Shown: piece after piece, positions 3,102-35,930 of the stretch
Position numbering within the stretch: the first letter of the stretch is position 1
Layout of the letters: the number at the start of each line of letters is the position of its first letter
Source of the DNA: a virus
DNA length: 35,930 nt
IMG/VR virus record: IMGVR_UViG_3300037847_004068
Span: 1 to 35,930 of that record
Direction: 5' to 3' (one strand)
The notes under the pieces: model-generated
Told to the model about the DNA's origin: nothing
The model's input: the letters and a program-made list of their open reading frames with translations, nothing else
Database searches by the model: none
Position numbers and translations under genes: made by a program

Positions 3102-3476
3102 TTAACATTTCCATCTACGTCTAGCAGCTCGACCTCTTTCACCTGTCCAGCCTTTTGATCTAGCGCAGAACGATTTTCTACGTTTAGCAGCTTTACTACC
3201 TGGTTTAACTTTACCGGTTACAGCTGTTTTTAATTTGCTACCAGGGTTTTTACGCCTGTATTCTTTTACACCTTTTGCTGTCATTCCAGCGCCTTCCTCT
3301 ACAGTTCGGAAGTTGCGGCCCTTGCCTTTTGTTGTTTTTCTAGGCTCGTTACCTTTTTTTCTTTTTTCAAAAGGTGAGTTTTCCTCTGTTTTTAAAAAAC
3401 CTTTGCCGATGCCGCCGGCTCTACGCCTACCACATGATGTCACTGGAAAAGGATTATTTTTTTGAGTATACGCCAT
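3102..3476 (-). CDS. Basic protein resembling DUF6321 family
   Basis: 124 residues, strongly basic. Starts MAYTQKNNPFPVTSCGRRR. The C-terminal half (65-124) has the pattern GMTAKGVKEYRRKNPGSKLK, then KPGSKAAKRRKSFCARSKGW, and ends in RRRWKC; this matches my recollection of the DUF6321 phage domain (helix, Gly-Ser-Lys-Leu, RRKSFCAR, terminal W-x-C). Cys at 15, 104 and 124. First gene of the run of small genes; it lies three bases from the stop-side neighbour at 3480. Probably a nucleic-acid-associated or virion-packaged protein, but no function is proven for the family. Confidence 0.8.
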   Translation of the reverse strand: MAYTQKNNPFPVTSCGRRRAGGIGKGFLKTEENSPFEKRKKGNEPRKTTKGKGRNFRTVEEGAGMTAKGVKEYRRKNPGSKLKTAVTGKVKPGSKAAKRRKSFCARSKGWTGERGRAARRRWKC

Positions 3477-3479
3477 ATC

Positions 3480-4514
3480 TTAGAAGATTACATAGTTTGC
3501 TCCACACTTAAAGTTGTACCACTCTCTATTCCAGTACTTATAGTATCTACCTTCAAGGAACACACCTATATGTTTATTAAATCTTTTACCAAATATCAAA
3601 CCTCCTGAATAATCAAGCCATTGACCATCTACTGTATTATGATACATATATTCACCTCCAGTGTCGTAATGATAGGGTAAAATATTTCCCCATGTGTGGA
3701 ACCAGAAGTCGTCTGTAAAGTGATAGAAGTCGAAGCCGGCAACCACTGAGTAATTCCATTGACGAGCGAGTTCACTTCTTTTTCTAGCAGTGTATTCAGA
3801 TAAGATGTTAGGGATAGTGACTGCTTCCCAGACTTCAGTGTTTGTTGCAACGACTGTCCCGTCAGGAGCGAGGTACTCGCCTGTAGTAAGGTTGTGTGAA
3901 TATCCTTCTTCAATTGCGAGGTAAGTATAGTGTATGTCTCCTGTTGCCAGCTTCCACTCTTCAAGTGGATCATATCCGTAAGGCTCTGAGATACGTTGCG
4001 CGACGCCTGCGTGCAAAGAAAACTTGTTACCGAGCTTAAGTCGAAATCGTTGTGATCCTTCAAAGTACTCAATGTCTGCAAACCCGTCTTCAAGGTACTC
4101 AACCTTTGCCATAACTTTGTCTCCGATATAGCGAAAAAAGTGGTGCTGGTTAAAAAACTCTCTACCTTGTTGCCTTTCGTATGTAACCTCGCCAAGAAAC
4201 TCTATACCGTTACGCTTACCTATATTAGCATCAGCAGACCAAGATGTTTCTGATCCGTCATAGAAAGCATTAGCTCTATTCTCATACCCAAATCTAGCGA
4301 TCTTACGAACACCCATAGATAGACTATAGTCAAACGGTGTAGCTATAGTCTCTTGAGTTAACCCGTCAGTAACAGAGTATATAGTTTGATCTGACACAGA
4401 GTTACCTCCGTTAACAGCTGCGTAAAACGTAGAAAACTTAAAAGCTTTTTTTAACTCTTGAGCTTGCAACGTAAAGCAATTTAGTGCTAGTATTAGTAAA
4501 AATATTTTTTTCAT
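3480..4514 (-). CDS. Outer-membrane-like beta-barrel protein with signal peptide
   Basis: 344 residues. The N-terminus MKKIFLLILALNCFTLQAQ is a clear Sec signal peptide with likely cleavage after Gln/before Glu-20. The mature part is rich in alternating aromatic/hydrophobic strands (for example FEGSQRFRLKLGNKFSLHAG, VFLEGRYYKYW) and ends in an aromatic residue (CGANYVIF), typical of Gram-negative outer-membrane barrels. This fits phage modification of the host outer membrane, such as receptor masking or superinfection exclusion, or an egress role; a virion protein is less likely given the signal peptide. Codon choice in about 3660-4200 differs from the flanks (CGA, CGC, CTT, CTC, C-ending codons), suggesting a mosaic origin. 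Leader before the ATG is A/T rich without a Shine-Dalgarno sequence. Confidence 0.82.
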   Translation of the reverse strand: MKKIFLLILALNCFTLQAQELKKAFKFSTFYAAVNGGNSVSDQTIYSVTDGLTQETIATPFDYSLSMGVRKIARFGYENRANAFYDGSETSWSADANIGKRNGIEFLGEVTYERQQGREFFNQHHFFRYIGDKVMAKVEYLEDGFADIEYFEGSQRFRLKLGNKFSLHAGVAQRISEPYGYDPLEEWKLATGDIHYTYLAIEEGYSHNLTTGEYLAPDGTVVATNTEVWEAVTIPNILSEYTARKRSELARQWNYSVVAGFDFYHFTDDFWFHTWGNILPYHYDTGGEYMYHNTVDGQWLDYSGGLIFGKRFNKHIGVFLEGRYYKYWNREWYNFKCGANYVIF

Positions 4515-4521
4515 TGTCTAT

Positions 4522-7500
4522 TTATTTAGGTAAAGTTCCTTTGCGTTTTGGTTTACCAAACCCTTGTTTTTTACTTGAGCCTTTTTTCTTTTTTGATTTA
4601 GAATCTTCTTCTTCTATATCTAAGTTCCATTTGCTCCAACCGCTAAACATAAGTATTCTATTCATAATAGAGTGCTCGTTATTAAGGGCTTCTCTTACAT
4701 TTTGAGTTTTCCTGTAAAGCTGTGCAGTTGGTATATTCGTAACACCCTGTATATAAGAAGCGGTAGCAGACCATTGAGGATTATCTATATCAAAAGTCTC
4801 CATTTCTTCTATTTCTTTTTTATTGTAGTTTAATGTTTTTTCTGCATTAACTATTTGCCTTGCTTTAATACCAAGAGGAGGCGAAACATTAAGCATCTCC
4901 ATAAGAACAGCGCTCTCATCTTTAGCGTGCGCAGGTTTTTCACGCTGCTCAAGTTGTTTAATTACCATGTTTTTTAATGTAGCAGCAACAGCTCCATAAA
5001 CTCCAGTACCTCTAAGCACAGAGTCGATACTTCCATTAATCATGCGGCCTTTCTTCTTCAATAGCTTTTCATCGTCTTCATCATCATCAAACATTGTTGC
5101 AAATAAAGCGCTTTGTAAAGCGTAGAATATAAGGTTTTGTACCGCTAGATAATAAACTACTCTTGAAACATTAGACAAGTCGTTTTGCAACTGTGTTGCG
5201 TTAGGATTTGTTTTTCTTCTATTTTTAAGATCTAAAAACGCTTTCTTACCAACCCTATTAAACTGAGATGTTACGTTTTGGAAAGCTAGTATAAATTTAC
5301 CTAATGGAGAAGCCTGCTGCTGTGAAACCATGTCTGGTCTTGCAGACTGCTGTGTTGTTTGCGTTACATCTAAAAAGTCCTCCCAAGCTTTGTTTTCAGC
5401 CTCTTTTTTGTTTAAACCTTTTTTAATGTATAGGTTAACTCTATTTCTATAGAACGTAGCGCCACCAGTTGCTATAGCCATACTATCCGCAATTTGCGTA
5501 GGTGTAAAACCAACTCTAAGTAGCTCTTTAACAGCAGCTCTAAAAGGATTTCTTGAACCCTGTATTTTAGAAGCTAGCTCTGCACCGTTTACGTCTGTTT
5601 GTATACCACCTCTTCTTTGTTTTAAATCAGCAGAATTAAATATATAAGCCCAGTCAGTCCAATATTGTTTTTGATTTGCAAAAGCTTTAGCGGCTGCCAA
5701 CATGTTGTTGTCTGCAAAGTTTATATAGTTAACAATAGACATTTGCTGCAACACGGCTGATCTCATATTAAAAAACATAACACTACCAACAGCACCATTA
5801 ATAAAGTTAACAAACTCATTAACTATTGCATTAGTACCACTTGGTCTGTTTCTACCTGTTTTAATTCTATAGAGCATATCTTCTATAGCATCGCGCATGC
5901 TCTTACCGTACGCAGCTTCTATCTTATTAAGATTTTCTTTTGAAAATATAATATCAGCGTTGTTGATAAACTCTTCAAAGTATTGCGCTCTACCCACTCT
6001 ACCAGTGGCTGCTTCAAGATCAGTTCTTATGTCGTTAACCTCCCAAACTTCTGATGGTGATACATAATCTTCTAGTTTAGATATTCTATTTAACACCTCA
6101 GCATAAGCTTGTAGCTGTTGATCATTTTTAACTAAATCAACTAAACCTTGTTGATCTGTTTTACTTAAGCCAGGTATAGTGTGACCATGTTTGTCCCACA
6201 AGTAAACTCTTATAGCGTCTTGGAAAGTAAAATCACCTTGAGGTACTTCTTTATTAAATTTTTTCTTTACATCTGGAAAACTTTTGTTAAGCTTTTTATA
6301 GTCATTAGCAATAGCTTGACGAGCTGTGTCTAACTCTCTGTTAGCTCTATTAAGAGGTCTTAATAAAGATTTTTCAAAAAAGTCTCTATGAGCGTTTCCT
6401 TTTTCTCCTTTACCCATAAAGTTATAAAGTAGCCCTACAAAATCTTCATGAGACGGTGGTACAAAAAATCTAAACTTACCTTTATCCTTACCTCTTTTAC
6501 GGGCTTTTGTGTCAGAAAATCTTTTTGCTGCGTCTATGCCTGAAACCTCTTCAAGTATTTTGTTAAAGTCTACATTCATGGACTCGCTAAACTTTACTTT
6601 AGCTTGCTGTACTTTAGATTTAACGTCAAACTGATTAAGCATGTTTTTTACAGCCTTTACGTTTTGTATAGCGTCATCAGCAAAGTAAAAATCATTATAA
6701 CCTTCAGCAACTTTTCCAGCAATCCAATCAGCTTTTGCTTGAGCAGTAGAGTTACCTAAACCAGTAATATTTTCAATAGGTATTACTAATCCATTTGCAT
6801 CTAAAAATTCTTTAATAGCAGCCTGTGATTCTGGAGCTCTTGCCGTAAGTATAAACATATTTTTTGTTCCAAACTTACCTGCTAGCTTTTGAGCCTTAGC
6901 AAATAAGGGTGCTGTTTTGCCTTCAACTACTTTGTTAAACTCTGAAAAATCAAATGTATAACCTTCAGCTAAAAGGTCTGCTCCTTGCTTAGCAAACTCT
7001 TCTGCGTTTAACTTACCAGTAACGCCGTCAGGAGTTGTGTATAAAACGTTAGACCTAGTAGTTGCTAACGTGTCGTCAAAATCTAGAACTGTAATGCCTT
7101 TAGGCTTTCTAGGTATTCTACTATTACGTATAGCTTTTATTAGCGACTGATTACCAGTGCTCATGCTTTCGCTAAACTTAATGTTTGCTACATTTTCGCC
7201 ATATGTTTTTGTTTTAGCACTTGGATCTAAGCTTTCAATAGCGTATAAATCCGGATGCCCAAATGTAGACATGTTATAGTAACGACTTGTAGAGCTTTCG
7301 CCAGGTCTATATCCTACAGGCATAACATGTACTAAGCCCATGTTTTCAAGTATCTTGTCCATAGTAGCTGGTATTACAGCTACGGTATACTCTTTAAATA
7401 AGGCGTCTAGATCAACAGCACCATCGTTCATATAAGCATTTGTAATTTGCATAACCATGTAGTTAGTAGGTATCATATGCTCATAACGTAGCTCTCCAGT

Positions 7501-10500
7501 ATATTTCTTACCAGCTTTATCTTTATATATGTAAGCAAGATTTGCTGCACGCTTAAGTGGAGACTGCATGTTACTGCCCATACTCATCATAAGCATTGCA
7601 AAATCTTCTTTGGTAAGCGCTCCTTTTTTAATTTGATCTTTATAATGTTGCGCAATATCTTTAACAAACTCTTCAGAAATTTTAGCTTGTTTTTTTCTAG
7701 CTTTATAGTTTTTGTCTGACATAGCAGACTTAGAAGTTTCAGACAAAAGAGATGTATCTATTTTATTACCATCTATGTTTTGAAACTTAGATAGACTACC
7801 CTTTTTAGTAGTTTTTATTGTTTCGTCGCTAAAAACTTTTTTTATTACGTTGTCAACAAAATCTTTTTTGCTGTCAAACACCTGATATCTTTGAGATCCA
7901 AAAGACTCACCTTCTTTTAATATTACTTCTACAACAACCCCTTCTTTATTAACAGTAAAATTACCTCTACTAATTTTCGAGCTAGTCGCGTACATACCGC
8001 TAGCGTGAACAAGCATCATAAACGCTTTTTCTTTACCGTACTTGTTTATTAGTTTTTTAGCTACAGCTACTACTTCAGCTCTTGCTCTATTTATATTGTC
8101 AATATTATCGAAGCTTTTTGATAACTGTATAAACTTACCAGCGTCGTCTTTTAAATCTAAATACTGCGCTAGATTCATTTCAAGCTCAGCCGCCTTTAGA
8201 TTATCATATAAGTATTCGTTTAAAGTTTGCTCAGGCTTTGTTTTTACATTAACATGTCTTTCGTTTATGTCGCCATATCTACTAGCTAACTTAAATATTT
8301 CTTTACCTAATTTTGTTGTTTTGCCAGTTGTAAATATATCTCCGTAAATATTTTTAACAGCGTCCATAACCTGCTCTTGATCTCTAACATTTACGATTTT
8401 TAAGTTCGCACTTAGTAGTGGTAGATTTTCGTAAAAATTAGCTAGCTCAGCGTCAGTTAAACCTTTTACAACAGCACTAAGTTTAACAGTATCAAAGCTT
8501 AGTTTTTCACTTTTTTGGCTTTCTCTAGCTTTATTATATAACCTAAGCTCAGCTTTTAAAACCTCGCTTAAGTCGTTAGATTTCTCTGATATTACTTTAT
8601 CAATAGCTTCTGCTGTTAAATCTGCAGAAATAAACTCAGCTAATCCTCTTTGTCTAGCTAATAGTGTAGTGTAACCACCTTCAGTAAAATACTTAGTCCA
8701 CTTAGCCTTTGTAGTCGTTATGTTAAATATACCTTTTCTATAATAACTATCTTTTTTAAGGCCTGGTTTGTCAGACTTTCTAGTAACCCTTTGCTCCTCA
8801 CCAATTTTTTCTATATCAAATAACTGATTGTACTTTTTCTTTATAGTAGTAACGTCGAGTCTATTTATATAGTCTTGATAGTTAAGAGCATGATGCGCTT
8901 TGTATTCTTCACTTACAACTACTTTACCACCTACGTTTCTAATAGCACCCATTTGAGCTTTAACCGCTTTAGCAAAGTCTTTTGATACAAGCTTTTCTAT
9001 TTGTTCAATTAAATTTTCTGGATTTTGCTCTATTAAATCATTTATTTTATTTTCAATTTGACTAGATATAACGTCTTTGTTGTCAAGAGTAATATCTTTT
9101 AGTGACTTAATTTCTCTAGCTTTTTTAACTCTTTTAGTATCAGCTACAACCTCTTGTTTCGGCGCAGCTATTGTTTCAGCCACAGTTCTGCCGCTATCGT
9201 CTTTAGCATCGATCCTTGTCTCTTGTTTTTTCCTTGCTCCCTCTACCGCTAGCTCTTTAGCTGCAACTAGCTTACCAAAGCCAACGTTAGCCATTAAAAA
9301 CTCACCAATAGTTACACCCTCTGTACCGCCTACTTTTCTTTCAGCTTTCGGATCATAGTTTATTAAACGATCGGTTACAGCTTCAATAGTCTTTTGAGTC
9401 TTTTCAGGACTCATGTTTAAGCTTCTTATGTAATTGTTAATAGCACCACCAGGTAGCATAGTGTTATAGATTTTATCAAAACCTTTTCTTCCACTAGCTT
9501 GAAACTCTTCTTTAGTATATTCCTTGCCTTCTGCCTCTATGTTTCGCTTAATCTCCTGCTCTATAGCATTAACAGCTTCAACAGCTTTAGATCTATTCTT
9601 AACAGCAACAGACTCTTTTACTTCTCTTTCTTTATCGTCAGCGTCTACACGGCCAGTAGGTGTTCTACCCGTGTATCTTTCGCCAGTGCCGTTAAAGTCG
9701 TTATACTTTTGTAAAAACTTTAAAGTATTTTCAGCGTTAAAATTACTGAAGTCTATATCACCTACTTTTTGACTTGTACCTTTTCTAAAAATATCTTGAA
9801 GCAACTCACCCATAGCTGCTAAAGTACCACCGTTTTCTATATTAATATCTTTAGTCTGCACGTAATTTAACGCGTCTGAAAGCGATGTAAAAAACTCTTC
9901 TTTACCTATCTTTGTGTCTAATCCCGTACCTTGCATTTCGTATACCGCTAGCTTTTCAAATAAACGCGCCTTTACTTCTTGCATTTTAGGATCGTTGCTT
10001 TCCCGTATTTCCTTCAACGCGCCTTCAATAAAAGAGTCTAGCTCTTGCGCTTCCATGCCATCAAGTACAAAGTGCAATATCTCGTGGTGTGCTACGTTAC
10101 TAGCAGACCAATCACCTTCTCTTATGTTTTTCCTAACGTTATCGTTAACTAAAATCGCAATATCTCCTAAATTAGCTCCGTTAATATCGCCATTTAACAA
10201 TCTTTTAAGATGCTCTTCCCCTAGTCTATCTTGAAGTTTATTTTTCTTTATATAATTTTCAGCTTCAGTTACAGTTTCAAAAGTGACAACTTTCTTATCT
10301 TTAAAGATACCTTCGTTTTTGTTATTAACCCAATTAGCAATTCCAACACCAGTAGTTAAATAGTCTTGAATTAAAACTTTATATTTATTTTCGTCTTTAA
10401 GCTCTTGTAGTTTGTCTTTTTTTCTTTTTACCTGTATCTCTTCGTCTGTAGTGTATTTGCCGTAGTTTTCTTCACCAATCTCTTTTTTAGTTTTTTTGAT

Positions 10501-12801
10501 ATTTTCTTCTAAAGCATTAATTTCTTCCTCAAGTTTTGTTTGCTCTACAAGGTTGTCAATAACTTCACCTTTTTCTTCGCCGTCTAAGTTTTTAAGTTTC
10601 CTGTTACTAACAAGTTGTTCTGCGGCCTCTAGCTCTCCAAACAAATCGTTTCTTGTTCTTTTATCTATTTCACCAGCTTTAAACAGCGCATCTATCTCTT
10701 CTTTCTTTTTATTTATAATACCTCTTACAGACTCAGGATCTCTTATACCTTGAACGTGAGATATAGTTTCTTGTACACTAGTGGTAATAACATTACCACC
10801 TGTAATTAAAAAAGGAGTTGTTAAAAAAGCTTGACCAGCAGCCTCGCTTATTCTTTTTATATTAAATGAAGTGTCTTTAAAATCTCCAGTAGCAATACCA
10901 ACATTTGTGATGCTTGACACCTCTTGCAAACTTTCTGTTATAGACTCCATAAGAGAAGCTTGTGTTAACTCTTTACCAGCTGATTTCCAACCTTGGCTAA
11001 GAAATTTCTTAAAATTACCGTCAAGCAACTTCCTTAACATGTCTTTTGGTAAAAATTTTGTTCCAGCTTTAAGCACAAAAGCGTTACCAATAAGGTCTAG
11101 ACCGGCAGTTTGAAAGCCAGTTCTTACAGCAGCATCGGTATTAGCCTCCCCTTTGTTAACGATATCTAGCATAGCATCTGCTTTTTCTTGATCGTTCAAC
11201 GCTGACCATTTCTGCATTTTCGCTTCATCACTATCACCAGGAAACATTTTGTCTCTGGCTATTTCCGATACAATCTCAAAGTACGCTCCGCCACCTTCTT
11301 GCATATACGTTGAGCCACCCATCGTAAGTATAGCGCCTAACATTTGGACACCTTGTGTTCCAATCATACGCCAATATTCGTCAAGAGTTAAGTCAGGATC
11401 AAGTACGCTTTCACCAAAAATAGTAGGGTGAATTACATCATTTAAAGATTTTTGATAATCCATCGATGTAATAATATTATCTCTAATATCTTCTTCGTAA
11501 AATTTAATTCTATTCTCTAAAACTTGTCTTCTTTCGCCAACCGTATATTTTCCTTTTACTCCAGAAGTTTTTTCCCAGTTTTTGTTAAAAGCAGGCATAT
11601 TAAGATCTGGTCGTTCTTTGCTATCAGGTAAATACGTAATTACTTCTCCACTAAACTTAAGTATCTCATCATCAGCTCTACCTTCTAGACTTTTTAGTTC
11701 TTTTGCGGCATCTTCAGCTAAAGTGCTAACTTTTAACGCTTGCGCATTGTAGTACGATTGCGGTATTTGATAAATACCAGTTATATAAGCACCTCTAAGC
11801 GTCTTATTTGCTATAGGAAGGTCTTTTATTATTGAGCCTACAAAACCTTGAGAAAGAACTGCATCTTCTTTTTCTACTCTAACTTTCTCTTTTATAGCAC
11901 CGCCAAACCTAGTGCCAACACCTTGGTGAATTGAGTTTATAGTTTTAGCAAGATCTTCGTCTACAAGTAATCTATTATACACTTCTTCACTAAAAAGTTC
12001 ATTAAACTCTTTCATAAAGTTTTCTTGACCTTCTTGTGTAGAAATATCGTGTTTAGATTTTAAGCTTTCTGCCAAAGACGTCAAAAACTCGGTATCTTCA
12101 CCTAGTGATTCACTAAGAGATACTGCTGCTTTGTCAACAGCCTCACTATCAGCTTTTTGTAATATACGATTGGTGTGATCAAGTAGTTCGTCAGAAGTTA
12201 GTTCTGCTATAGTTTTTGTTGATCCGTCTTCATTTTTAAAAGATATCTCGCTGGTGTCAGCTAAACTCCATCCGTTAGAGTATTCCGCAGAGTTTATAGA
12301 AGGGTCATCATCAGCGTGCGCTTTAATGAAGTCATTCATTTGATTTGCCATCTTATCACTTGCTCCAGTGGCAAATCCAAAAATATCAGCGTTGACGCTA
12401 AATGTTTCTTCTGCTCCATCAGGAGCTATTACTTTAACGTAGTCAAGACCAGGTACAGCCTCTTCAAACTCAAAGCCTAAACCACTAAATCTGTTTTTCA
12501 ACATTTCTACGGCCTTACCTTCACCTCGTCCTGTAATGTCACTTGTAACTTGAGGTAATGTAACTTCGCCAGGTGTTGTAGTAGCTACAGGCTTATTGTC
12601 TTCAGCAACTTTAGAACCTAATCCAAGTAAAGAAGAAAAGTCTTCAACATTTCCTCCGTAGCCTGCTGCTGCAGAGTTTTTGTGAGCTAAATTTAACGCT
12701 TCTTGATTGGTAGATATAAGTTCAACGAACTGTTCTCTAGTACCACCATAGCCATTAGCTTTAGCGTCTTCAAACGCTTGATTTAAAGCTTCTTCGTTCA
12801 T
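4522..12801 (-). CDS. Giant polyvalent internal/ejected virion protein (zincin motif, HAD phosphatase domain)
   Basis: 2759 residues. Two GYGG repeats open the protein (about 6-60). A Gly-rich, moderately hydrophobic region lies near 470-700, then a charged coiled coil near 700-800. HEILH at 906-910, in the context SNVAHHEILHFVLDGM, is a gluzincin-type metalloprotease motif; a downstream EEFFTSLSDAL may supply the third ligand. A complete HAD set follows: DFDDTLA (D1907, D1909), T1986 in FILTAR, K2023 and DD 2042-2043. The HAD module is bracketed by FSESM at 1876-1880 and 2071-2075. The C-terminal third ends in a hydrophobic segment near 2545-2570 and a Lys-rich tail. Multi-enzyme giants of this kind are described as phage polyvalent proteins, thought to be packaged and delivered into the host. 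Position after internal-protein genes supports that. Substrates are unknown. Confidence 0.85.
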   Translation of the reverse strand: MNEEALNQAFEDAKANGYGGTREQFVELISTNQEALNLAHKNSAAAGYGGNVEDFSSLLGLGSKVAEDNKPVATTTPGEVTLPQVTSDITGRGEGKAVEMLKNRFSGLGFEFEEAVPGLDYVKVIAPDGAEETFSVNADIFGFATGASDKMANQMNDFIKAHADDDPSINSAEYSNGWSLADTSEISFKNEDGSTKTIAELTSDELLDHTNRILQKADSEAVDKAAVSLSESLGEDTEFLTSLAESLKSKHDISTQEGQENFMKEFNELFSEEVYNRLLVDEDLAKTINSIHQGVGTRFGGAIKEKVRVEKEDAVLSQGFVGSIIKDLPIANKTLRGAYITGIYQIPQSYYNAQALKVSTLAEDAAKELKSLEGRADDEILKFSGEVITYLPDSKERPDLNMPAFNKNWEKTSGVKGKYTVGERRQVLENRIKFYEEDIRDNIITSMDYQKSLNDVIHPTIFGESVLDPDLTLDEYWRMIGTQGVQMLGAILTMGGSTYMQEGGGAYFEIVSEIARDKMFPGDSDEAKMQKWSALNDQEKADAMLDIVNKGEANTDAAVRTGFQTAGLDLIGNAFVLKAGTKFLPKDMLRKLLDGNFKKFLSQGWKSAGKELTQASLMESITESLQEVSSITNVGIATGDFKDTSFNIKRISEAAGQAFLTTPFLITGGNVITTSVQETISHVQGIRDPESVRGIINKKKEEIDALFKAGEIDKRTRNDLFGELEAAEQLVSNRKLKNLDGEEKGEVIDNLVEQTKLEEEINALEENIKKTKKEIGEENYGKYTTDEEIQVKRKKDKLQELKDENKYKVLIQDYLTTGVGIANWVNNKNEGIFKDKKVVTFETVTEAENYIKKNKLQDRLGEEHLKRLLNGDINGANLGDIAILVNDNVRKNIREGDWSASNVAHHEILHFVLDGMEAQELDSFIEGALKEIRESNDPKMQEVKARLFEKLAVYEMQGTGLDTKIGKEEFFTSLSDALNYVQTKDINIENGGTLAAMGELLQDIFRKGTSQKVGDIDFSNFNAENTLKFLQKYNDFNGTGERYTGRTPTGRVDADDKEREVKESVAVKNRSKAVEAVNAIEQEIKRNIEAEGKEYTKEEFQASGRKGFDKIYNTMLPGGAINNYIRSLNMSPEKTQKTIEAVTDRLINYDPKAERKVGGTEGVTIGEFLMANVGFGKLVAAKELAVEGARKKQETRIDAKDDSGRTVAETIAAPKQEVVADTKRVKKAREIKSLKDITLDNKDVISSQIENKINDLIEQNPENLIEQIEKLVSKDFAKAVKAQMGAIRNVGGKVVVSEEYKAHHALNYQDYINRLDVTTIKKKYNQLFDIEKIGEEQRVTRKSDKPGLKKDSYYRKGIFNITTTKAKWTKYFTEGGYTTLLARQRGLAEFISADLTAEAIDKVISEKSNDLSEVLKAELRLYNKARESQKSEKLSFDTVKLSAVVKGLTDAELANFYENLPLLSANLKIVNVRDQEQVMDAVKNIYGDIFTTGKTTKLGKEIFKLASRYGDINERHVNVKTKPEQTLNEYLYDNLKAAELEMNLAQYLDLKDDAGKFIQLSKSFDNIDNINRARAEVVAVAKKLINKYGKEKAFMMLVHASGMYATSSKISRGNFTVNKEGVVVEVILKEGESFGSQRYQVFDSKKDFVDNVIKKVFSDETIKTTKKGSLSKFQNIDGNKIDTSLLSETSKSAMSDKNYKARKKQAKISEEFVKDIAQHYKDQIKKGALTKEDFAMLMMSMGSNMQSPLKRAANLAYIYKDKAGKKYTGELRYEHMIPTNYMVMQITNAYMNDGAVDLDALFKEYTVAVIPATMDKILENMGLVHVMPVGYRPGESSTSRYYNMSTFGHPDLYAIESLDPSAKTKTYGENVANIKFSESMSTGNQSLIKAIRNSRIPRKPKGITVLDFDDTLATTRSNVLYTTPDGVTGKLNAEEFAKQGADLLAEGYTFDFSEFNKVVEGKTAPLFAKAQKLAGKFGTKNMFILTARAPESQAAIKEFLDANGLVIPIENITGLGNSTAQAKADWIAGKVAEGYNDFYFADDAIQNVKAVKNMLNQFDVKSKVQQAKVKFSESMNVDFNKILEEVSGIDAAKRFSDTKARKRGKDKGKFRFFVPPSHEDFVGLLYNFMGKGEKGNAHRDFFEKSLLRPLNRANRELDTARQAIANDYKKLNKSFPDVKKKFNKEVPQGDFTFQDAIRVYLWDKHGHTIPGLSKTDQQGLVDLVKNDQQLQAYAEVLNRISKLEDYVSPSEVWEVNDIRTDLEAATGRVGRAQYFEEFINNADIIFSKENLNKIEAAYGKSMRDAIEDMLYRIKTGRNRPSGTNAIVNEFVNFINGAVGSVMFFNMRSAVLQQMSIVNYINFADNNMLAAAKAFANQKQYWTDWAYIFNSADLKQRRGGIQTDVNGAELASKIQGSRNPFRAAVKELLRVGFTPTQIADSMAIATGGATFYRNRVNLYIKKGLNKKEAENKAWEDFLDVTQTTQQSARPDMVSQQQASPLGKFILAFQNVTSQFNRVGKKAFLDLKNRRKTNPNATQLQNDLSNVSRVVYYLAVQNLIFYALQSALFATMFDDDEDDEKLLKKKGRMINGSIDSVLRGTGVYGAVAATLKNMVIKQLEQREKPAHAKDESAVLMEMLNVSPPLGIKARQIVNAEKTLNYNKKEIEEMETFDIDNPQWSATASYIQGVTNIPTAQLYRKTQNVREALNNEHSIMNRILMFSGWSKWNLDIEEEDSKSKKKKGSSKKQGFGKPKRKGTLPK

Positions 12802-12802
12802 A

Positions 12803-14770
12803 TTACTTTATCTTATTATACTCTTCTAGTATGTTCTCGCTAGTAAGAGGCACGTTTCTTGCTCTTAAGTTTTCCGCAGCTTGCTGCATAAGCCGATCTC
12901 TTTCTTTATCTTTTTTTGATTTGTTATCGTCAGCACTTTTAGCTGCCCCAGAGCTCGTCTCTGTGCTCGTTTGCCCAGCGGGCTTAGGAGTTGTACCTAA
13001 AAGCTTTCTAACCATCATGTCTGCTTGTGACGAGCTAGCAAATACTCGTTTACCGTCTATAACAACCATAGCGCCCCAGTCTGACTGAGTGCCTTTGTCA
13101 TATCTTCCACTTCCAGCGTATATCTTACCGCCTTTACCATCTGTCCAGTTTCCTGACTTTTCATCTCTTGTCCAATCGTTAATGTTAAATACTTCATCAA
13201 CGTAGTTGCTAGGGAACCCTTGCGCTTCTTCTTCTTGGTTAGTATCAAAGTTTGACCAGTTTCCAGTACTTTTACCGCTAGACTTAGGAGTAACTAAATC
13301 TAAGAACTGTGGTTCAGATATACCTAAGCTTGATACAAATGATTGAGGGCCACCGTAAGATAATCTTTCTTCACCATCCTCTCCTTCAATCATTTCATAC
13401 CATTCATTTTTAGCAGGATCGTATGTGAATTTAGTACCTAACATAGTAACACTCGTTTCTTTACCATCTACTGATTTACTAAGAGCATTATATAACTGCA
13501 TTGCTGGCCCGTGCTTTAAATATTGATCAGTGCCTCCGATGTATAAGCTATCTTTTGTTTCTGTCCAGAGTTTAGTTTCGTCTGTTGTAGTTGTTTCCTT
13601 TTTTAAGTTAGATATTCTCTCATTAAGCGCATCTATTTTATCTTGAACCTTGTCGTTAGCACCCATGAGTTCTCGACCTATATCAAGGCTTCTTTGACCC
13701 TCTGTGTCTGTAAACCATTTAGCAGCAACGCTAAAAGCAAAATCTCTATCTTCTGCTGAAGGTTGAGTTAATGTTTTTACAAACTGTATGTAATTTTCTT
13801 CTGTGCCAAAATCTTCTCTAGTTATTTTTCCATCAGGTTTACCGTTGTCTCCCTTTGTATCTAGCTCAGGTTTCATTTCATATAAAACAGAAAATATTTG
13901 AGCTGCTACCTCGCTATTAGGGTCGTGCAAAGCTTCATAATAACTCATAGGTTGACCAAACATTTTGGCAGTAGTAACACTTGAAAAACCTGAAGCATTA
14001 TTTTTAAACAATTCTAGCAAATCGTTTTGCATCTTACCAAACAACATCTCTTCTGTTAAGCCTCGAGTATTTTTAGCAGTTGATTTAGCATCGTTAAAAA
14101 TTTTATTGACATCAGCAATTAAAGCTGTATCTTTAACAACAAGCATGTCGTTTAATTCAGCTAAAGGTACGTGATCAAACTTTTCACCGTCTTTAGAAGT
14201 AAACGAAAATGAAACTTTACCGTTTTCTTTGTGTACTTGAAAATTTGCATCTGTATCGTCTCCAGTGTAATACTTAGCAACTTGCCCTATAAAATCTAAT
14301 GTACCAGCACCAGTTAACACAGGATCGTAAGCCTTAGTTTGAAAATTAGTAATTAACTCTTGAGACTTTTGTGCTGTAGACTGGTTGTCTTTAATGTATT
14401 TATTAACGTCATATAAAAGATCTTCTCTTTTTCTTTTGTTTTCCTCGCCATACAAACCTATTCCTTCTAGTTGATTTCTATAATCAGCTAATACGTTCAT
14501 CATTTCATCTCGTTCGTCTCTGTTCTCTATAGTACCATCATTTATTTGAGTTGCAAGTTTATCTATTGCACTTTGAACACCATCGTTGACACTATTTATT
14601 TCTTTCATACTTTCTTCAAAGTTAGTAGAAATATTTTCCATCATGTCTTTATAGTCACTGATAAAACCAGTGGCCATATCTTTCATGTCAAATGGCTTTT
14701 GTGCTTCAGCAAACTTACCTGCTGCGCTTACTATCGTTGCGTCTGCTTTTATATTCATGTTAGTTGCCAT
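12803..14770 (-). CDS. Probable internal virion protein, 655 residues
   Basis: No clear family. Residues 1-170 are mostly helical and charged (repeated Asp/Glu/Lys with heptad-like spacing, for example NFEESMKEINSVNDGVQSA), followed by a short beta-rich stretch (FQVHKENGKVSFSFTSKDGE), and a loop DTKGDNGKPDGKITREDF near residue 307 that resembles a degenerate EF-hand or dockerin-like calcium loop. The C-terminus is Ser/Lys rich then ends in a short helix (RARNVPLTSENILEEYNKIK). It lies one base from the giant polyvalent gene and three bases from the 295-residue internal protein, so the three probably form a unit comparable in position to the internal core/ejection proteins of T7-type phages. 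The role is inferred from position. Confidence 0.75.
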   Translation of the reverse strand: MATNMNIKADATIVSAAGKFAEAQKPFDMKDMATGFISDYKDMMENISTNFEESMKEINSVNDGVQSAIDKLATQINDGTIENRDERDEMMNVLADYRNQLEGIGLYGEENKRKREDLLYDVNKYIKDNQSTAQKSQELITNFQTKAYDPVLTGAGTLDFIGQVAKYYTGDDTDANFQVHKENGKVSFSFTSKDGEKFDHVPLAELNDMLVVKDTALIADVNKIFNDAKSTAKNTRGLTEEMLFGKMQNDLLELFKNNASGFSSVTTAKMFGQPMSYYEALHDPNSEVAAQIFSVLYEMKPELDTKGDNGKPDGKITREDFGTEENYIQFVKTLTQPSAEDRDFAFSVAAKWFTDTEGQRSLDIGRELMGANDKVQDKIDALNERISNLKKETTTTDETKLWTETKDSLYIGGTDQYLKHGPAMQLYNALSKSVDGKETSVTMLGTKFTYDPAKNEWYEMIEGEDGEERLSYGGPQSFVSSLGISEPQFLDLVTPKSSGKSTGNWSNFDTNQEEEAQGFPSNYVDEVFNINDWTRDEKSGNWTDGKGGKIYAGSGRYDKGTQSDWGAMVVIDGKRVFASSSQADMMVRKLLGTTPKPAGQTSTETSSGAAKSADDNKSKKDKERDRLMQQAAENLRARNVPLTSENILEEYNKIK

Positions 14771-14773
14771 TGT

Positions 14774-15661
14774 TTAGTTAAGAAAGTCAAGGGATATATC
14801 TCCGTATGTATTTGTCGGTAATCCAGTTACTTCAGTTCCTCCACCAACGGTTGTTGGAGTAGAGATTGTTCCTCCTGATCCTGAGTACGCAAAAGGATTA
14901 GTAGTTGTAGTACTCCCGCTGCCCATGTTGTCAAATAGACTGTTAAAATCTATTTGATTAGCAAAATTCATCATCATCTGATTATTAGCCATTTGCATTT
15001 GCGCGCCTAGCATACCCATCTGCATTTGATTTGCGTATGCACCCTGTACGCCAGCCGCTGCACCCGCTGCCTCTTGGAAACCAACGCCCAGTAAAGTAGC
15101 TTGCCTTTGCATCTCTGCTTGCTGGACAGCCATATCGCCACCTCTTCTAGCCATCTCAGCTTGAAATGCCCCTTGTCTTTGTAGCTGTTGTATTCTTGCG
15201 CCACCTTGTGCAGCAAGTCTTTCGTTCATAGATTCTTGTCGAGCTATATCAGCGGAAACTTGTCTCGCTTGTATAGTACCTTGTTGGGCTAAAGATTGCG
15301 CTAAACTAGCTATACCAGAAGCACCAGCGGCGCCACTTAGTCGCTCTAATATATTAGCCCTTTGCTGAGTGCCTTGCTCCATTTGAAACCTAGCAGCGTC
15401 TTGACTTACTGTTAAATCTTCAAACGTGTTTTCCATGTTTGCAAAAGGATTTTCAAGACTTGCGTATGGGTTAAAAAACTCGAACTCTCTATATCTTTGG
15501 CGCTGCTCTTCGAGTTTAGCCATAGCTTCTCGCTGCAATTGTAGCTGCGCTTCTGCTTGTTCGGCGGCTAGCCTTTGACCTTCTTTCGCTGTCTTATTAG
15601 CTTTTTGTTGCCCAAATAGACTTACAACTGCAGGTACTACTACGTTCCAAGGAAATGCCAT
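14774..15661 (-). CDS. Ala/Gln-rich coiled-coil internal virion protein
   Basis: 295 residues. A short hydrophobic N-terminus (MAFPWNVVVPAVVSLFGQQK) is followed by a long Glu/Gln/Arg helix (about 25-60), the conserved-looking segment FFNPYASLENPFANMENTFE, another long Ala/Gln-rich helical stretch with Gly-rich hinges (GAAGASGIASLAQSLAQQG), a Met/Gln/Asn-rich region (MQMANNQMMMNFANQ) and a Gly/Thr-rich tail. This composition matches small ejection/internal core proteins that line or traverse the portal channel; similar sequences are familiar from marine phage contigs. First gene after the 64-base gap at 15662-15725, so it may head a transcription unit with the 655- and 2759-residue genes. Confidence 0.78.
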   Translation of the reverse strand: MAFPWNVVVPAVVSLFGQQKANKTAKEGQRLAAEQAEAQLQLQREAMAKLEEQRQRYREFEFFNPYASLENPFANMENTFEDLTVSQDAARFQMEQGTQQRANILERLSGAAGASGIASLAQSLAQQGTIQARQVSADIARQESMNERLAAQGGARIQQLQRQGAFQAEMARRGGDMAVQQAEMQRQATLLGVGFQEAAGAAAGVQGAYANQMQMGMLGAQMQMANNQMMMNFANQIDFNSLFDNMGSGSTTTTNPFAYSGSGGTISTPTTVGGGTEVTGLPTNTYGDISLDFLN

Positions 15662-32033: not shown

Positions 32034-34448
32034 TTATTTAGGTCCAAAAGCTTCTAAACTAAAACCTTCACCTATAGTATCATTACCTGCTGATTCAAAG
32101 TTTTTAGCGGGTTTGTTACCTTTTCTTTGCTCAATCATTTCGCTTTGTTGAGTGGCTTGTATTTTAGTTCTTTCGTCTTTACGATCTTCTTTTTGTTTTT
32201 CTCTTTCTTTCATGCCGTCAACTTCCATGCCCTTGAGCTTCATATTGTAATTAAACTCTAGATCCATAAGTTGCTTTTTAGCTTGCATTTCTAACTGTAG
32301 CTTTTTAGCGTCAGCTTCGCTTTGCGCTTGTAGTAACTGTATTTTACTAGCGGTTACTGCTTGTTCTTTTTGAACTTCCGCTTGCGCTGCAGCTTGAGCC
32401 GCTTGTTGATTAGACTGTGTTTGCGCTTGGATGTTTTGCATCTGTTGCTGCCTGTCACGCTCTAATTTTCTATTACGTCTAATCTTCAATAACTGATTAG
32501 CTAGTTTTAGATTCTTTATTTCTCTAATATCAATAGCATCTTCAAGATCTATGCTACTTTGCTGCAACGCCATTTGAATATTATTTTCAAGTAGTTGTCT
32601 TTCTTCTTCGTCAGGAGACAACTCAATAAATATACCAAAGTCGTGCAGATGCAAGTCTTTTAGTTCTTCTAGCTTTGCTACGTTACGGTGACCTATTGAT
32701 TCTATAAACGCTTCTTTTGTAGGAGAATATTCAATAACATCAGATATACGTAGTGAAAGTTTTTCTGCTGTTTCCGCAGTTAAAAATAAACCTGACTGAA
32801 GAATATGTCTTGTAGCTGTGTTAGAATTAGCAGCGGCAATTTTTTGTATACCAACTAAAGCGTTTTTATCAGGCATACTACCGTCTCTAGCTTCATTAAG
32901 ACCCGTTACATCACGGATCATTTGTAGATAATAATTGTAAGTTTGTATTAAAGACTGAAGTTTAGCTCCTTTATTATTAGAATTTATTTCTTGAATTGGT
33001 ACCTTACCAGGATTCATATCACCTTCAGAAGTAAAACTTCTACCTATAATACTACCCGTTTGGAAGAACATATTAAGAGCTTCTTGCGGATTATAGTTTG
33101 TGCCATTACCTAGATCAACCTCTGCTAAACCATCAGCGTCTAAGTAAACACCATCAGGCACCATCTTAGACATAACTTGCTGCAACTTTAAATGCGTCAA
33201 CTGGATCATGTCGGCAAAACCAGTTATTCTACCTACTAAGCTCTCAACTCTACCTTTATACATACGAGGCGCAACAATAGAGTAATTCATTTTAACTTTG
33301 TTAAAATCACTCTTTGATCTAACCATATTCTTACAAAGACCCCATCTTAACAATTTATCACAACCTAGTAAATACACGCCTTCATAAAGAACCTCAATTT
33401 TTTTAGAAGCTTTTGTATATTCACCGTTCATGTCTGATGGAGGATTAAAGGCATCTGTTTTTCTTATAGCCTTTTGACCACCAGTACCAGTGGTTTTTAT
33501 TTTGTAAACCTCACTGTTGTATGTCTTGTAGTTAAAATATAAAACTTCAATAACGTTTCTATCTCTATCTGATCTACTGCCTCTATATCTATAGTTTTTA
33601 TTCTTAGTATTTTTACTTAATATTTCTTCGATATCTTCTTCACTAAGGTTAGGAAAGTCACGTACCAGTTCGTTAATAGTAATAGACTTTACTTCGCCAA
33701 CGTAATATATATCATCAAAAAACGGTGAGTCAGTGTAAGAGTAAACCATGTTCGCAGGGTCTACGTATTCAACTTTTAATCCATCAGAAGGATTAAACGA
33801 TGTTTTTGAAGCGCCTATACCTAACACAGCTAAATCATAAAATAATCTTTTCTTAATTAGCTCGTAGTTATTGCCTTCAAGTAAAACGTTGATAGCTTGT
33901 TCCTCAGCTATTTCAATTGCTTGCTTGTATTCTAACTGCATATACAACTGCAGCTCTTCTTGACTACCAGGTAATTCACGAACGTTGCTGCGGCTGGTGT
34001 CCATGCCTAACTGCTGCATCATAAGATCGTCAAACTCCCTCATCTGCATGTCTCCAGATATAGAATCTATGAAATTATTTCTTTCCTCAGATCCGCTGGC
34101 ATCAATAGAAAATGCTTTTATGTCGTACGTTCTTTCAGCAATACCATTAACTACAATATCTACAAACTTAGGTATAATTGGAACAGGTGTCCAATCTAAA
34201 TTAAGATAGGATAAATCACCGTTTATAGATAACTCATCCTTGTACTTTTGTATAGACTGCTCACCTCTAGCATACAGCCTAAGCTTATGAAAGTTGTTTA
34301 AATTAGTAGTATACCTACTAATATTAGCGTCTTTGTGAAACCACTCCGCATGGATAGCTTTAGCTACTTTTCTACCATACTCTAACGAGTCTTTTTCAGC
34401 GTCGCTTACGTTTTGCTTTGGAAAATTAACATGTACTGACTCAGCCAT
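32034..34448 (-). CDS. Portal protein
   Basis: 804 residues. Directly follows terminase. N-terminal helical region (MAESVHVNFPKQNVSDAEK, VAKAIHAEWFHKD), VPIIPKFVDIVVNGIAERTY near 90-110, DPANMVYSYTDSPFFDDIYY near 230-250 and a portal-type clip/stem section near 490-560 (YNYYLQMIRDVTGLNEARDG, NALVGIQKIAAANSNTATRH). The last 170 residues form a long Gln/Ala/Lys-rich coiled coil (QQQMQNIQAQTQSNQQAAQA) ending in a short unstructured tail, which would form a barrel projecting into the capsid or serve as the internal-protein docking site. Length is at the upper range for portals. This is the most secure structural call after terminase. Confidence 0.88.
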   Translation of the reverse strand: MAESVHVNFPKQNVSDAEKDSLEYGRKVAKAIHAEWFHKDANISRYTTNLNNFHKLRLYARGEQSIQKYKDELSINGDLSYLNLDWTPVPIIPKFVDIVVNGIAERTYDIKAFSIDASGSEERNNFIDSISGDMQMREFDDLMMQQLGMDTSRSNVRELPGSQEELQLYMQLEYKQAIEIAEEQAINVLLEGNNYELIKKRLFYDLAVLGIGASKTSFNPSDGLKVEYVDPANMVYSYTDSPFFDDIYYVGEVKSITINELVRDFPNLSEEDIEEILSKNTKNKNYRYRGSRSDRDRNVIEVLYFNYKTYNSEVYKIKTTGTGGQKAIRKTDAFNPPSDMNGEYTKASKKIEVLYEGVYLLGCDKLLRWGLCKNMVRSKSDFNKVKMNYSIVAPRMYKGRVESLVGRITGFADMIQLTHLKLQQVMSKMVPDGVYLDADGLAEVDLGNGTNYNPQEALNMFFQTGSIIGRSFTSEGDMNPGKVPIQEINSNNKGAKLQSLIQTYNYYLQMIRDVTGLNEARDGSMPDKNALVGIQKIAAANSNTATRHILQSGLFLTAETAEKLSLRISDVIEYSPTKEAFIESIGHRNVAKLEELKDLHLHDFGIFIELSPDEEERQLLENNIQMALQQSSIDLEDAIDIREIKNLKLANQLLKIRRNRKLERDRQQQMQNIQAQTQSNQQAAQAAAQAEVQKEQAVTASKIQLLQAQSEADAKKLQLEMQAKKQLMDLEFNYNMKLKGMEVDGMKEREKQKEDRKDERTKIQATQQSEMIEQRKGNKPAKNFESAGNDTIGEGFSLEAFGPK

Positions 34449-34451
34449 ATT

Positions 34452-35930
34452 TTACTTTATTATCTGGGAATTAAATCCTTTGTTATCATATTTAGATATA
34501 TTCAAATTAAGCGGCTGCTTTTTTCTTTCAGCGTGAGGTGCATATAAATGCCTGTTGCACGCCATAATAGCTAAACCAGTGCTTATTGAAGCATCGTGCT
34601 TTGTTCTTTTGTTTATATCAAACTTAGCCCAGTCTTGTAGCGTATCATTGAAATACATAGTGCCGTAATTTCCATCGCCTAAATGACCTACGTGGTCTTG
34701 TATATACATTTCAATAGCAGCTGCGTGAGCTTGCTTAATATCTTCACTAGAGTTTGGTATACCACCGACTTCTTTTTCAGCAGTCGATAGTTTGTTCCAT
34801 GATTTATCTGGTCTGTTCATACTGTAGCCTCTATAACCTCTACGTCGTAAATAATAGAGTAGTCTAGGTTTATTATTCTCCGCTAGTAATGGCATGCCGT
34901 AAAATACTAGTGCCATTAACACGTCTTCAAAAAATATTTCTGCGGTTTGTGGTCTCGCTATGTATTCTAGGAAGAACGAACTCGGCGGTGCGTCTTCCAT
35001 AGAAAATTTTGTAAGTCCGTGTAAAGCTCCTTTAGAACCGCGACCATCAACCGTGCCACTGATATCGTAACTATCGCAACCAAAGGCGCCAACATGATCG
35101 TTACCGGGATATTTAATTCCATTTTTAATTATTTGCCTATTTTGTAAATGAACTGGCGGCACCCAGCTTATTTTAAACCTACCTGTTGGATCTGGATTAA
35201 ACACGACTTTTGTGTCTTTAACTCCGTTAACCCAGCCAAAACTACCTACAGTAAAAGGAGCATTATGCATGCTACCTTCATTATAATCTATTTGTTCGTA
35301 TATCTTAATTAAATTAAATATACTGTTTTTAGTCTCATCTCTAAACGCATGCTCTTCAGTACGTGGAAACTGCCTGTAAAACTCATTTAGCGCGTCTTGA
35401 TCATCACGCAAGCCATCAGCTTCATTTTCCCAGTGATCAATAACACCTACGTCTATTAATTCACCGTCTGGTCCATATCGTACATCATCACTTCCACAAT
35501 TAAAGACTGGAAGTCCGTATTCGTCAATAAATCCTTCATAGTTCCATTCCATTGGGATAAAGAGAGAATAAAGCCCAGACTTCGTTTGTCCATTACGATT
35601 TCGTCGTGTGACGTCAGAATCATTGTATAGTTTTTTAAAGTTATCTCCACCCTTGTCAAGCGCGTTACTGGTACTACCCATTAAGCACTTACCAACGATT
35701 TTACTACCTAGCCTTAAACAGGTTTTAGTAACTCGCCAGTTGTTTAATATGTTATCAGGCCTCTCCCATTTACCGCTTTCATCGTGTACTAGCAGACTTA
35801 ATTTTTCACCATCATAGCTATTGTCTCCAGTATTTTTCCAGTCGATCGTAGTATCAAGGCCTACTATTTCTTCAAGCTGCTCGTTACTCTGTATCTTTTT
35901 ACGAGTAAACTTACTAGCCGGAACTCTATA
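34452..35930 (-). CDS. Terminase large subunit, N-terminus beyond window
   Basis: The frame is open from the window edge to the stop at 34452, 492 visible residues. An internal Met at 35681 is not the start: codons upstream carry conserved ATPase motifs. In visible numbering, LSLLVHDE (44-51) is Walker B with its catalytic Glu and MGSTSNA (84-90) is the coupling motif. The RNase H-like nuclease follows: FGCDSYDISG (Asp 286), FFEDVLMAL (Asp 336) and KHDASISTGL (Asp 446), supplying three acidic metal ligands. Walker A must lie outside. The protein pumps DNA through the portal and cuts the concatemer. Three bases separate it from portal. Confidence 0.92.
   Translation of the reverse strand, partial: YRVPASKFTRKKIQSNEQLEEIVGLDTTIDWKNTGDNSYDGEKLSLLVHDESGKWERPDNILNNWRVTKTCLRLGSKIVGKCLMGSTSNALDKGGDNFKKLYNDSDVTRRNRNGQTKSGLYSLFIPMEWNYEGFIDEYGLPVFNCGSDDVRYGPDGELIDVGVIDHWENEADGLRDDQDALNEFYRQFPRTEEHAFRDETKNSIFNLIKIYEQIDYNEGSMHNAPFTVGSFGWVNGVKDTKVVFNPDPTGRFKISWVPPVHLQNRQIIKNGIKYPGNDHVGAFGCDSYDISGTVDGRGSKGALHGLTKFSMEDAPPSSFFLEYIARPQTAEIFFEDVLMALVFYGMPLLAENNKPRLLYYLRRRGYRGYSMNRPDKSWNKLSTAEKEVGGIPNSSEDIKQAHAAAIEMYIQDHVGHLGDGNYGTMYFNDTLQDWAKFDINKRTKHDASISTGLAIMACNRHLYAPHAERKKQPLNLNISKYDNKGFNSQIIK

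Follow-up and report, generated by a model that had tools for sequence, protein, structure and literature searches.

The window analysed here (a complete viral record, in the form of a linear fragment of 35,930 bases) encodes a giant protein of 2759 residues (hereafter P0001), which we judge to be rather probably virion cargo. It would be the third and also the largest in a trio of ejection proteins (295, 655 and 2759 aa) situated just after the muzzle, polyvalent by architecture and fold, and equipped with a zincin peptidase and a HAD phosphatase. In its best reading it represents the largest (‘E3-type’) ejection protein of a phage related to Callevirus and Elemovirus. Both catalytic sites are retained by nearly every member of the family of this protein, which is likely injected, and the P0001 family offers a concrete case for asking what a phage brings into the cell before expressing any gene.

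Genomic context of the giant protein

The interval occupied by P0001 (Table 1) is covered on the minus strand by a single unbroken ORF starting with ATG, and is stop-rich on the plus strand. The initial annotation, which had described, without naming the strand, one polypeptide of this length combining a HEILH motif with a full HAD catalytic set, proved accurate to the residue, as HEILH (906-910), DFDDT (1907-1911, including D1907 and D1909), TAR (1986-1988, including T1986), K2023 and D2042/D2043 were all verified in place. The gene order on the minus strand runs from the terminase large subunit (C-terminal part) through the portal, several structural genes, the muzzle and proteins of 474, 112, 295 and 655 aa to P0001.

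Table 1. Positions of the features discussed in the text, with the evidence on which each is based.
Feature	Position	Strand	Basis
P0001 giant ORF, 2759 aa	4522..12801	-	last large gene of virion operon; 16 IMG/VR relatives span the whole protein
All-helical C-terminal core, residues ~2070-2740	4582..6594	-	A2, 66% mean column identity; fold of large polyvalent phage proteins
HAD-superfamily phosphatase-type domain, residues ~1899-2067	6601..7107	-	phrog_415, DUF2608, VIA-align
HAD motif IV, D2042-D2043	6673..6678	-	invariant in A5
HAD motif III, K2023	6733..6735	-	invariant in A5
HAD motif II, TAR 1986-1988	6838..6846	-	invariant in A5
HAD motif I, DFDDT 1907-1911	7069..7083	-	D, D and T invariant in A5
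Zincin-like metallopeptidase domain, residues ~835-1035	9697..10299	-	HExxH in 75/78; H906, H910 and E969 invariant in A4; AlphaFold2 model
E969, proposed third zinc ligand	9895..9897	-	invariant in 41/41
HEILH, residues 906-910	10072..10086	-	ORF translation
Helical/coiled-coil region, residues ~465-740	10582..11409	-	common to giants of phi40:1, elemo, phi13:2, Panino and MW202828
655-aa neighbour, candidate middle ejection protein	12803..14770	-	position of phi40:1 gp100 only
295-aa neighbour, candidate small ejection protein	14774..15661	-	position of phi40:1 gp99 only
Muzzle protein, 2902 aa	17482..26190	-	PF25731 crAss_MUZ, 36.9 bits (cut-off 27); phrog_14478, E 3e-127
Portal protein	32034..34448	-	phrog_6547, E 9e-152; 87 isolate records, best 52.7% identity
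Terminase large subunit, C-terminal part	34452..35681	-	phrog_6681, E 1e-90

The nearest cultured relatives of the portal (87 records, at most 52.7% identity) are phages of Flavobacteriia (Flavobacterium, Cellulophaga, Tenacibaculum and Maribacter), together with one environmental genome, and the operon order TerL-portal-...-muzzle-...-giant is common to the window, phi40:1, elemo, Panino and MW202828. The source is a marine phage and, given the affinity of the portal and the shared operon order, its host is probably a member of the Bacteroidota. Seven genes lying between the portal and the giant in the window have tblastn matches in the compared phages, and for the muzzle such matches are present in all five. 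The muzzle of the window (2902 aa, as compared to 1324 aa in phi40:1) is matched over residues 1-573, 1443-1668 and 2722-2900, with large unmatched stretches in between.

By position only, the 295- and 655-aa neighbours are candidates for the two smaller ejection proteins, a sequence match to phi40:1 gp99 and gp100, respectively, being absent; the count of three follows the analogy with T7 (gp14/15/16) and N4 (gp52/51/50) (PMC12633501). A strong transmembrane segment is absent from P0001, which we count against its being ejected cargo.

The giant is directly followed by a 344-aa protein (3480-4514, minus strand) that has a signal peptide, ends in NYVIF, looks like an outer-membrane beta-barrel and has no Pfam match. 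Its homologues (34-93% identity, mostly 53-61%; with lipoprotein-like signals in some relatives) follow the giant in nearly all of the ~50 relatives that have a large enough flanking ORF; this envelope-type protein is phage-encoded and closely tied to the virion operon. The same strand further encodes two small, very basic proteins with similar starts (2535-2813 and 3102-3476; MAFEQLNNPF and MAYTQKNNPF), the one at 3102-3476 matching several larger phage families at their C-terminal ends, a 122-aa protein (1881-2249) that is hydrophobic in its N-terminal part, matches thioredoxin weakly (E 0.01, below cut-off) and has no CxxC where the active site would usually lie, and a secreted protein of at least 588 aa (2-1765) with repeated GCTDxxAxNYNPxANxDDGSC units, which runs off the end of the record.

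Cultured relatives and probable packaging

The operon of Cellulophaga phage phi40:1 ends in gp101, which, like the two genes preceding it (gp99 and gp100), is annotated as structural from experimental MS/MS; the giant of Flavobacterium phage elemo carries a structural annotation as well. The giants of Panino, MW202828, phi40:1 and phi13:2 matched members of the P0001 family by blastp (E 5e-12 to 1e-6, over window residues about 464-798), and hhalign with the P0001 family gave 95.6% for the elemo giant and 86.9% for that of phi40:1, all controls for giant-giant homology (reversed, shuffled and unrelated virion proteins) staying under 1%. Between the C-terminal core of P0001 and the C-termini of the isolates nothing was detectable by profile; by eye, the latter display a similar hydrophobic-then-acidic pattern.

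Judged from these sequence comparisons, packaging in the virion appears well supported at the level of the family. Packaging, which the initial annotation had set as a condition, is supported for the homologue phi40:1 gp101 (by its MS/MS annotation and its sequence link to the family), and is extended by homology to P0001 itself, which we infer to be packaged in the virion and which, on this ground, is probably injected into the bacterium at the start of infection.

The syntenic giant of MW202828 (L019:741-12320; 3859 aa) has two HExxH motifs (at 1615 and 2500), and over residues 1-64 it shares 39% identity with the N-terminus of P0001. Moreover, phi14:2 gp078 (L112:1808-7201; Crassvirales, structural by MS/MS) has a 140-aa stretch in common with the phi13:2 giant gp127 (L022:28394-34366; Pachyviridae) at 81% identity; by eye the stretch is GNAT-like, and Pfam yielded no match for it. 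As both giants belong to otherwise unrelated phages of Cellulophaga baltica, this shows an exchange of domains between the cargo giants of different phages.

The P0001 family

Scanning IMG/VR with P0001 recovered 16 relatives, and the C-terminal profile matched 446 places (80 kept), which is indicative of an abundant marine phage cargo family; three more matches of this profile came from contigs assigned to a Woesearchaeota MAG, which have the look of phage contigs binned in error. The full-length set consisted of 78 unique ORFs (2118-3383 aa), i.e. 77 relatives and the window protein, and the counts given below for the alignments A3, A4 and A5 refer to chosen subsets of the family. HExxH was kept in 75/78 full-length members (absent in L001, which has HDAFH, and in L079 and L080) and the HAD profile in 76/78 (absent in L014 and L015; the profile used for counting excludes these two, and one that included them gave false HAD matches for both). 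The initial annotation had regarded it as evidence against its reading if close relatives had lost HExxH or the HAD aspartates; this was looked for, and with these frequencies the sites turned out to be retained.

Searches by tblastn with the whole of P0001 and with the HAD alone against 50,697 phage records yielded zero matches, as did the PDB sequence search with P0001 (with profiles, it returned only chance-level coiled-coil or unrelated rows). Matches to Pfam DUF2604 and ROS_MUCR and to NCBIfam YraN were rejected as being at chance level. One relative (L010) contains a further insert of ~450 aa between the HAD and the C-terminal core (residues 1895-2340; no PHROG match), and a gap of similar size is present in L049 and L088.

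The zincin domain

On its own an HExxH motif is weak evidence, because a single one is present in 1.8% of P0001 shuffles. As the rows of A4 (41 sequences, ~15% identical to the window) were picked by HExxH (except L001) and E969 was not used for their selection, the independent facts in favour of a zincin are this glutamate, which lies 59 residues past the last histidine of HEILH and is invariant in 41/41, and the unselected count of 75/78. The region is otherwise very divergent (18% mean column identity in A4), and the sequences around the site differ widely across relatives (e.g. HELLHGI, HEFLHAV, HELQHIND, HEVGHAID). The AlphaFold2 model (core pLDDT about 85-98) consists of three strands, the HExxH helix and a later helix bearing E969, which is the arrangement described for the zincins of polyvalent proteins (PMC5512222). 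Foldseek and VIA-align comparisons of the model with solved structures listed no zincin, the list being filled by the coiled-coil part of the 681-residue model, and Foldseek against PDB yielded no significant row for it.

That the motifs of P0001 are chance occurrences or decayed remnants without catalytic function seems to us extremely improbable: the shuffling frequency of a lone HExxH, the HDAFH of L001 and the two members devoid of the motif would agree with it, but the catalytic residues are near-universal at a background identity of ~15% in the zincin region, and those of the HAD are invariant. On this conservation we take the zincin domain to be real and not a chance motif. It is not essential to the operon position, since the giants of phi40:1, phi13:2 and Panino occupy it without HExxH.

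The HAD domain and the kinase insert of some relatives

Few parts of P0001 are as conserved as the HAD (70% mean column identity in A5), with D1907, D1909, T1911, T1986, R1988, K2023, D2042 and D2043 all invariant across the 25 members of this alignment. Motifs I and II were found in 76/76 members and a strict motif IV in 73/76, the rest being two DDS variants and one in-frame deletion. The domain matched phrog_415 (‘polynucleotide kinase’; window E 2e-4, 8/36 members matching, best 9e-6) and, below cut-off, DUF2608 (E 3.5e-4). With a medium-confidence model (mean pLDDT 66.9; residues 30-192 used), nearly all leading VIA-align rows were HAD-fold proteins, HAD phosphatases among them (Z 6-9), and Foldseek against PDB gave no row under 1e-3. 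Structure prediction, which had been suggested as a check, thereby bore out the zincin arrangement (AlphaFold2) and the HAD fold (VIA-align), and failed to deliver a match to a solved zincin; the presence of two enzyme domains is backed by both their conservation and their predicted folds.

Seven relatives carry an insert after HAD motif I, at the hairpin turn where HAD caps sit (as judged by comparing sequence with the model of the window protein). A P-loop kinase (Zeta_toxin/AAA_33 up to 1e-13; phrog_505 polynucleotide kinase, 1e-10) makes up the insert of six of these relatives (L010, L035, L036, L037, L042 and L053), being assigned for L037 and L053 from the insert length and the three matching A6 members; L026 has a different insert. 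The window protein has no kinase domain, the combination of kinase and HAD being present only in the six relatives. A kinase inside the HAD hints, as far as domain composition can tell, at the processing of nucleic-acid ends. An RNA ligase, sought as a kinase/phosphatase partner in the records of 18 relatives, was in none over the cut-off and in 1/18 below it. We may go further and picture P0001 as the most widespread form of an injected end-healing enzyme, in which a HAD 3'-phosphatase rides on a giant ejection protein and some lineages gained a 5'-kinase at the cap position (i.e. a pre-made polynucleotide kinase/phosphatase that mends broken nucleic acid at infection), a proposal that we hold to be rather doubtful. 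If true, the repair would concern either the ends of phage DNA or host RNA that defence nucleases have cut.

A strongly conserved HAD next to a divergent zincin suggests that the substrate of the former is constant, and that the latter would co-vary either with its own cleavage sites or with targets that change. The first of these options would also be expected if the zincin were a maturation protease that processes P0001 before packaging, with the HAD as a passenger having a metabolic role and neither of them an effector at the moment of infection. Such processing is known for P1 DdrB, for which the C-terminal metallopeptidase was proposed as the agent (PMC5512222); however, the virion RNA polymerase of N4, which is the closest mechanistic parallel, is packaged uncut despite such a domain (PMC5512222), and a mere passenger is at odds with the HAD being among the most conserved regions, so that we regard early maturation as an unlikely alternative. 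The zincin types differ between relatives, which is compatible with changing targets and speaks for zincin and HAD being delivered effectors that hit host targets or host signalling nucleotides in order to block defence, as the initial annotation had envisaged. Polyvalent proteins have been proposed as early-phase weapons (PMC5512222), and the GNAT-like domain swapped between the cargo giants of two unrelated Cellulophaga phages would fit this role; yet no defence-linked context or target was found, and the high conservation of the HAD argues for a constant substrate and not for an arms race. We give this alternative the same modest credence as early maturation.

The C-terminal core and the polyvalent-protein class

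The C-terminal core is the most widely kept part of P0001, and is present in all 78 full-length members (for which it served as the search query). In a BFVD fold search with the C-terminal ~680 residues the best matches, after four close relatives, were C-terminal segments from giants whose annotations read PolyVal ADP-ribosyltransferase, large polyvalent protein associated domain, MuF or nuclease (E 1e-10 to 1e-4, 10-14% identity, TM about 0.3-0.5). The architecture is that of the class too, a zincin and a HAD being united in a single giant of a phage with portal and terminase genes. The designation of P0001 as a polyvalent protein, already made in the initial annotation, is therefore supported by its architecture and its predicted C-terminal fold, the Pfam domains named for these proteins (LPD, PolyVal, MuF) being absent in 31 members at E 0.05 or 0.01. 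The fold of the polyvalent proteins is hereby linked to a group with cultured relatives whose syntenic homologue is in virions. The main text of the founding polyvalent-protein paper (PMC5512222) does not name a HAD, and relative to it we could not find a HAD phosphatase described for the class, to which it would be new.

Proposed mode of action

In the mechanism that we favour (where both enzyme activities, the self-processing and the ejection of P0001 are our inference), the protein would take its place near the portal on packaging, cross the tail in unfolded form upon infection and refold at, inside or beyond the inner membrane; the region ~465-740 and the helical C-terminal core would probably serve as scaffold in packaging and ejection. 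The zincin would be a zinc peptidase that most likely cuts P0001 into working pieces and, less likely, host proteins, and the HAD would remove phosphate from a small molecule or a nucleic-acid end. Of these two substrates we prefer the nucleic-acid end, given the polynucleotide-kinase-like domain that lies within the HAD of six relatives.

Comparison with known systems

The affinity with polynucleotide kinase/3'-phosphatase (Pnkp; phrog_415, phrog_505) consists in the match of the HAD to phrog_415 and in the P-loop kinase, close to phrog_505, that six relatives add to it; in contrast to Pnkp, this kinase interrupts the HAD behind motif I instead of standing before or after the domain, the window protein lacks it, and no RNA ligase exceeded the cut-off in the 18 records.

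The virion RNA polymerase of N4 (gp50, ~3500 residues) is an ejected giant as well, the third of three ejection proteins and likewise endowed with an HExxH domain (PMC12633501; PMC5512222). P0001 differs from it by having a HAD and no RNA polymerase, and the PDB sequence search found no similarity. In the Crassvirales (crAss001 gp45-gp50; PMC10172136) the muzzle is also followed by cargo genes and a giant, and crAss001 gp47 has one HExxH (HEAFH, 2157). As the giant of the window is located after the muzzle in the manner of gp47, and virion RNA polymerase subunits are cargo in Crassvirales (PMC10172136), P0001 could be thought of as a virion RNA polymerase, like those at the equivalent place in Crassvirales and N4. 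We disfavour this reading and deem it highly improbable: a DxDxD catalytic motif is missing (the only DxDx(D/T) of P0001 is HAD motif I, and DxD[GI]D is present in only 5/78 members), and similarity to the Crassvirales cargo is lacking, profile comparisons with crAss001 gp45-gp50 or phi14:2 gp78-gp81 all being under 2%.

The giants of elemo (Elemovirus) and phi40:1 (Callevirus) share with P0001 the place at the end of the same operon and the region ~465-740, and have C-terminal cores unlike that of P0001 by sequence. The elemo giant (3694 aa) has HExxH and lacks the HAD, whereas phi40:1 gp101 (1691 aa), which is found in virions by MS/MS, has neither. Finally, the large polyvalent proteins (PMC5512222) differ from the P0001 family by their named Pfam domains (absent in the 31 members), and have in common with it the several unrelated domains per giant, the HExxH zincin with a glutamate on a later helix and the same predicted C-terminal fold; a HAD, not named in the main text of that paper, is present in the P0001 family, which adds a phosphatase of this type to the known cargo of such giants.
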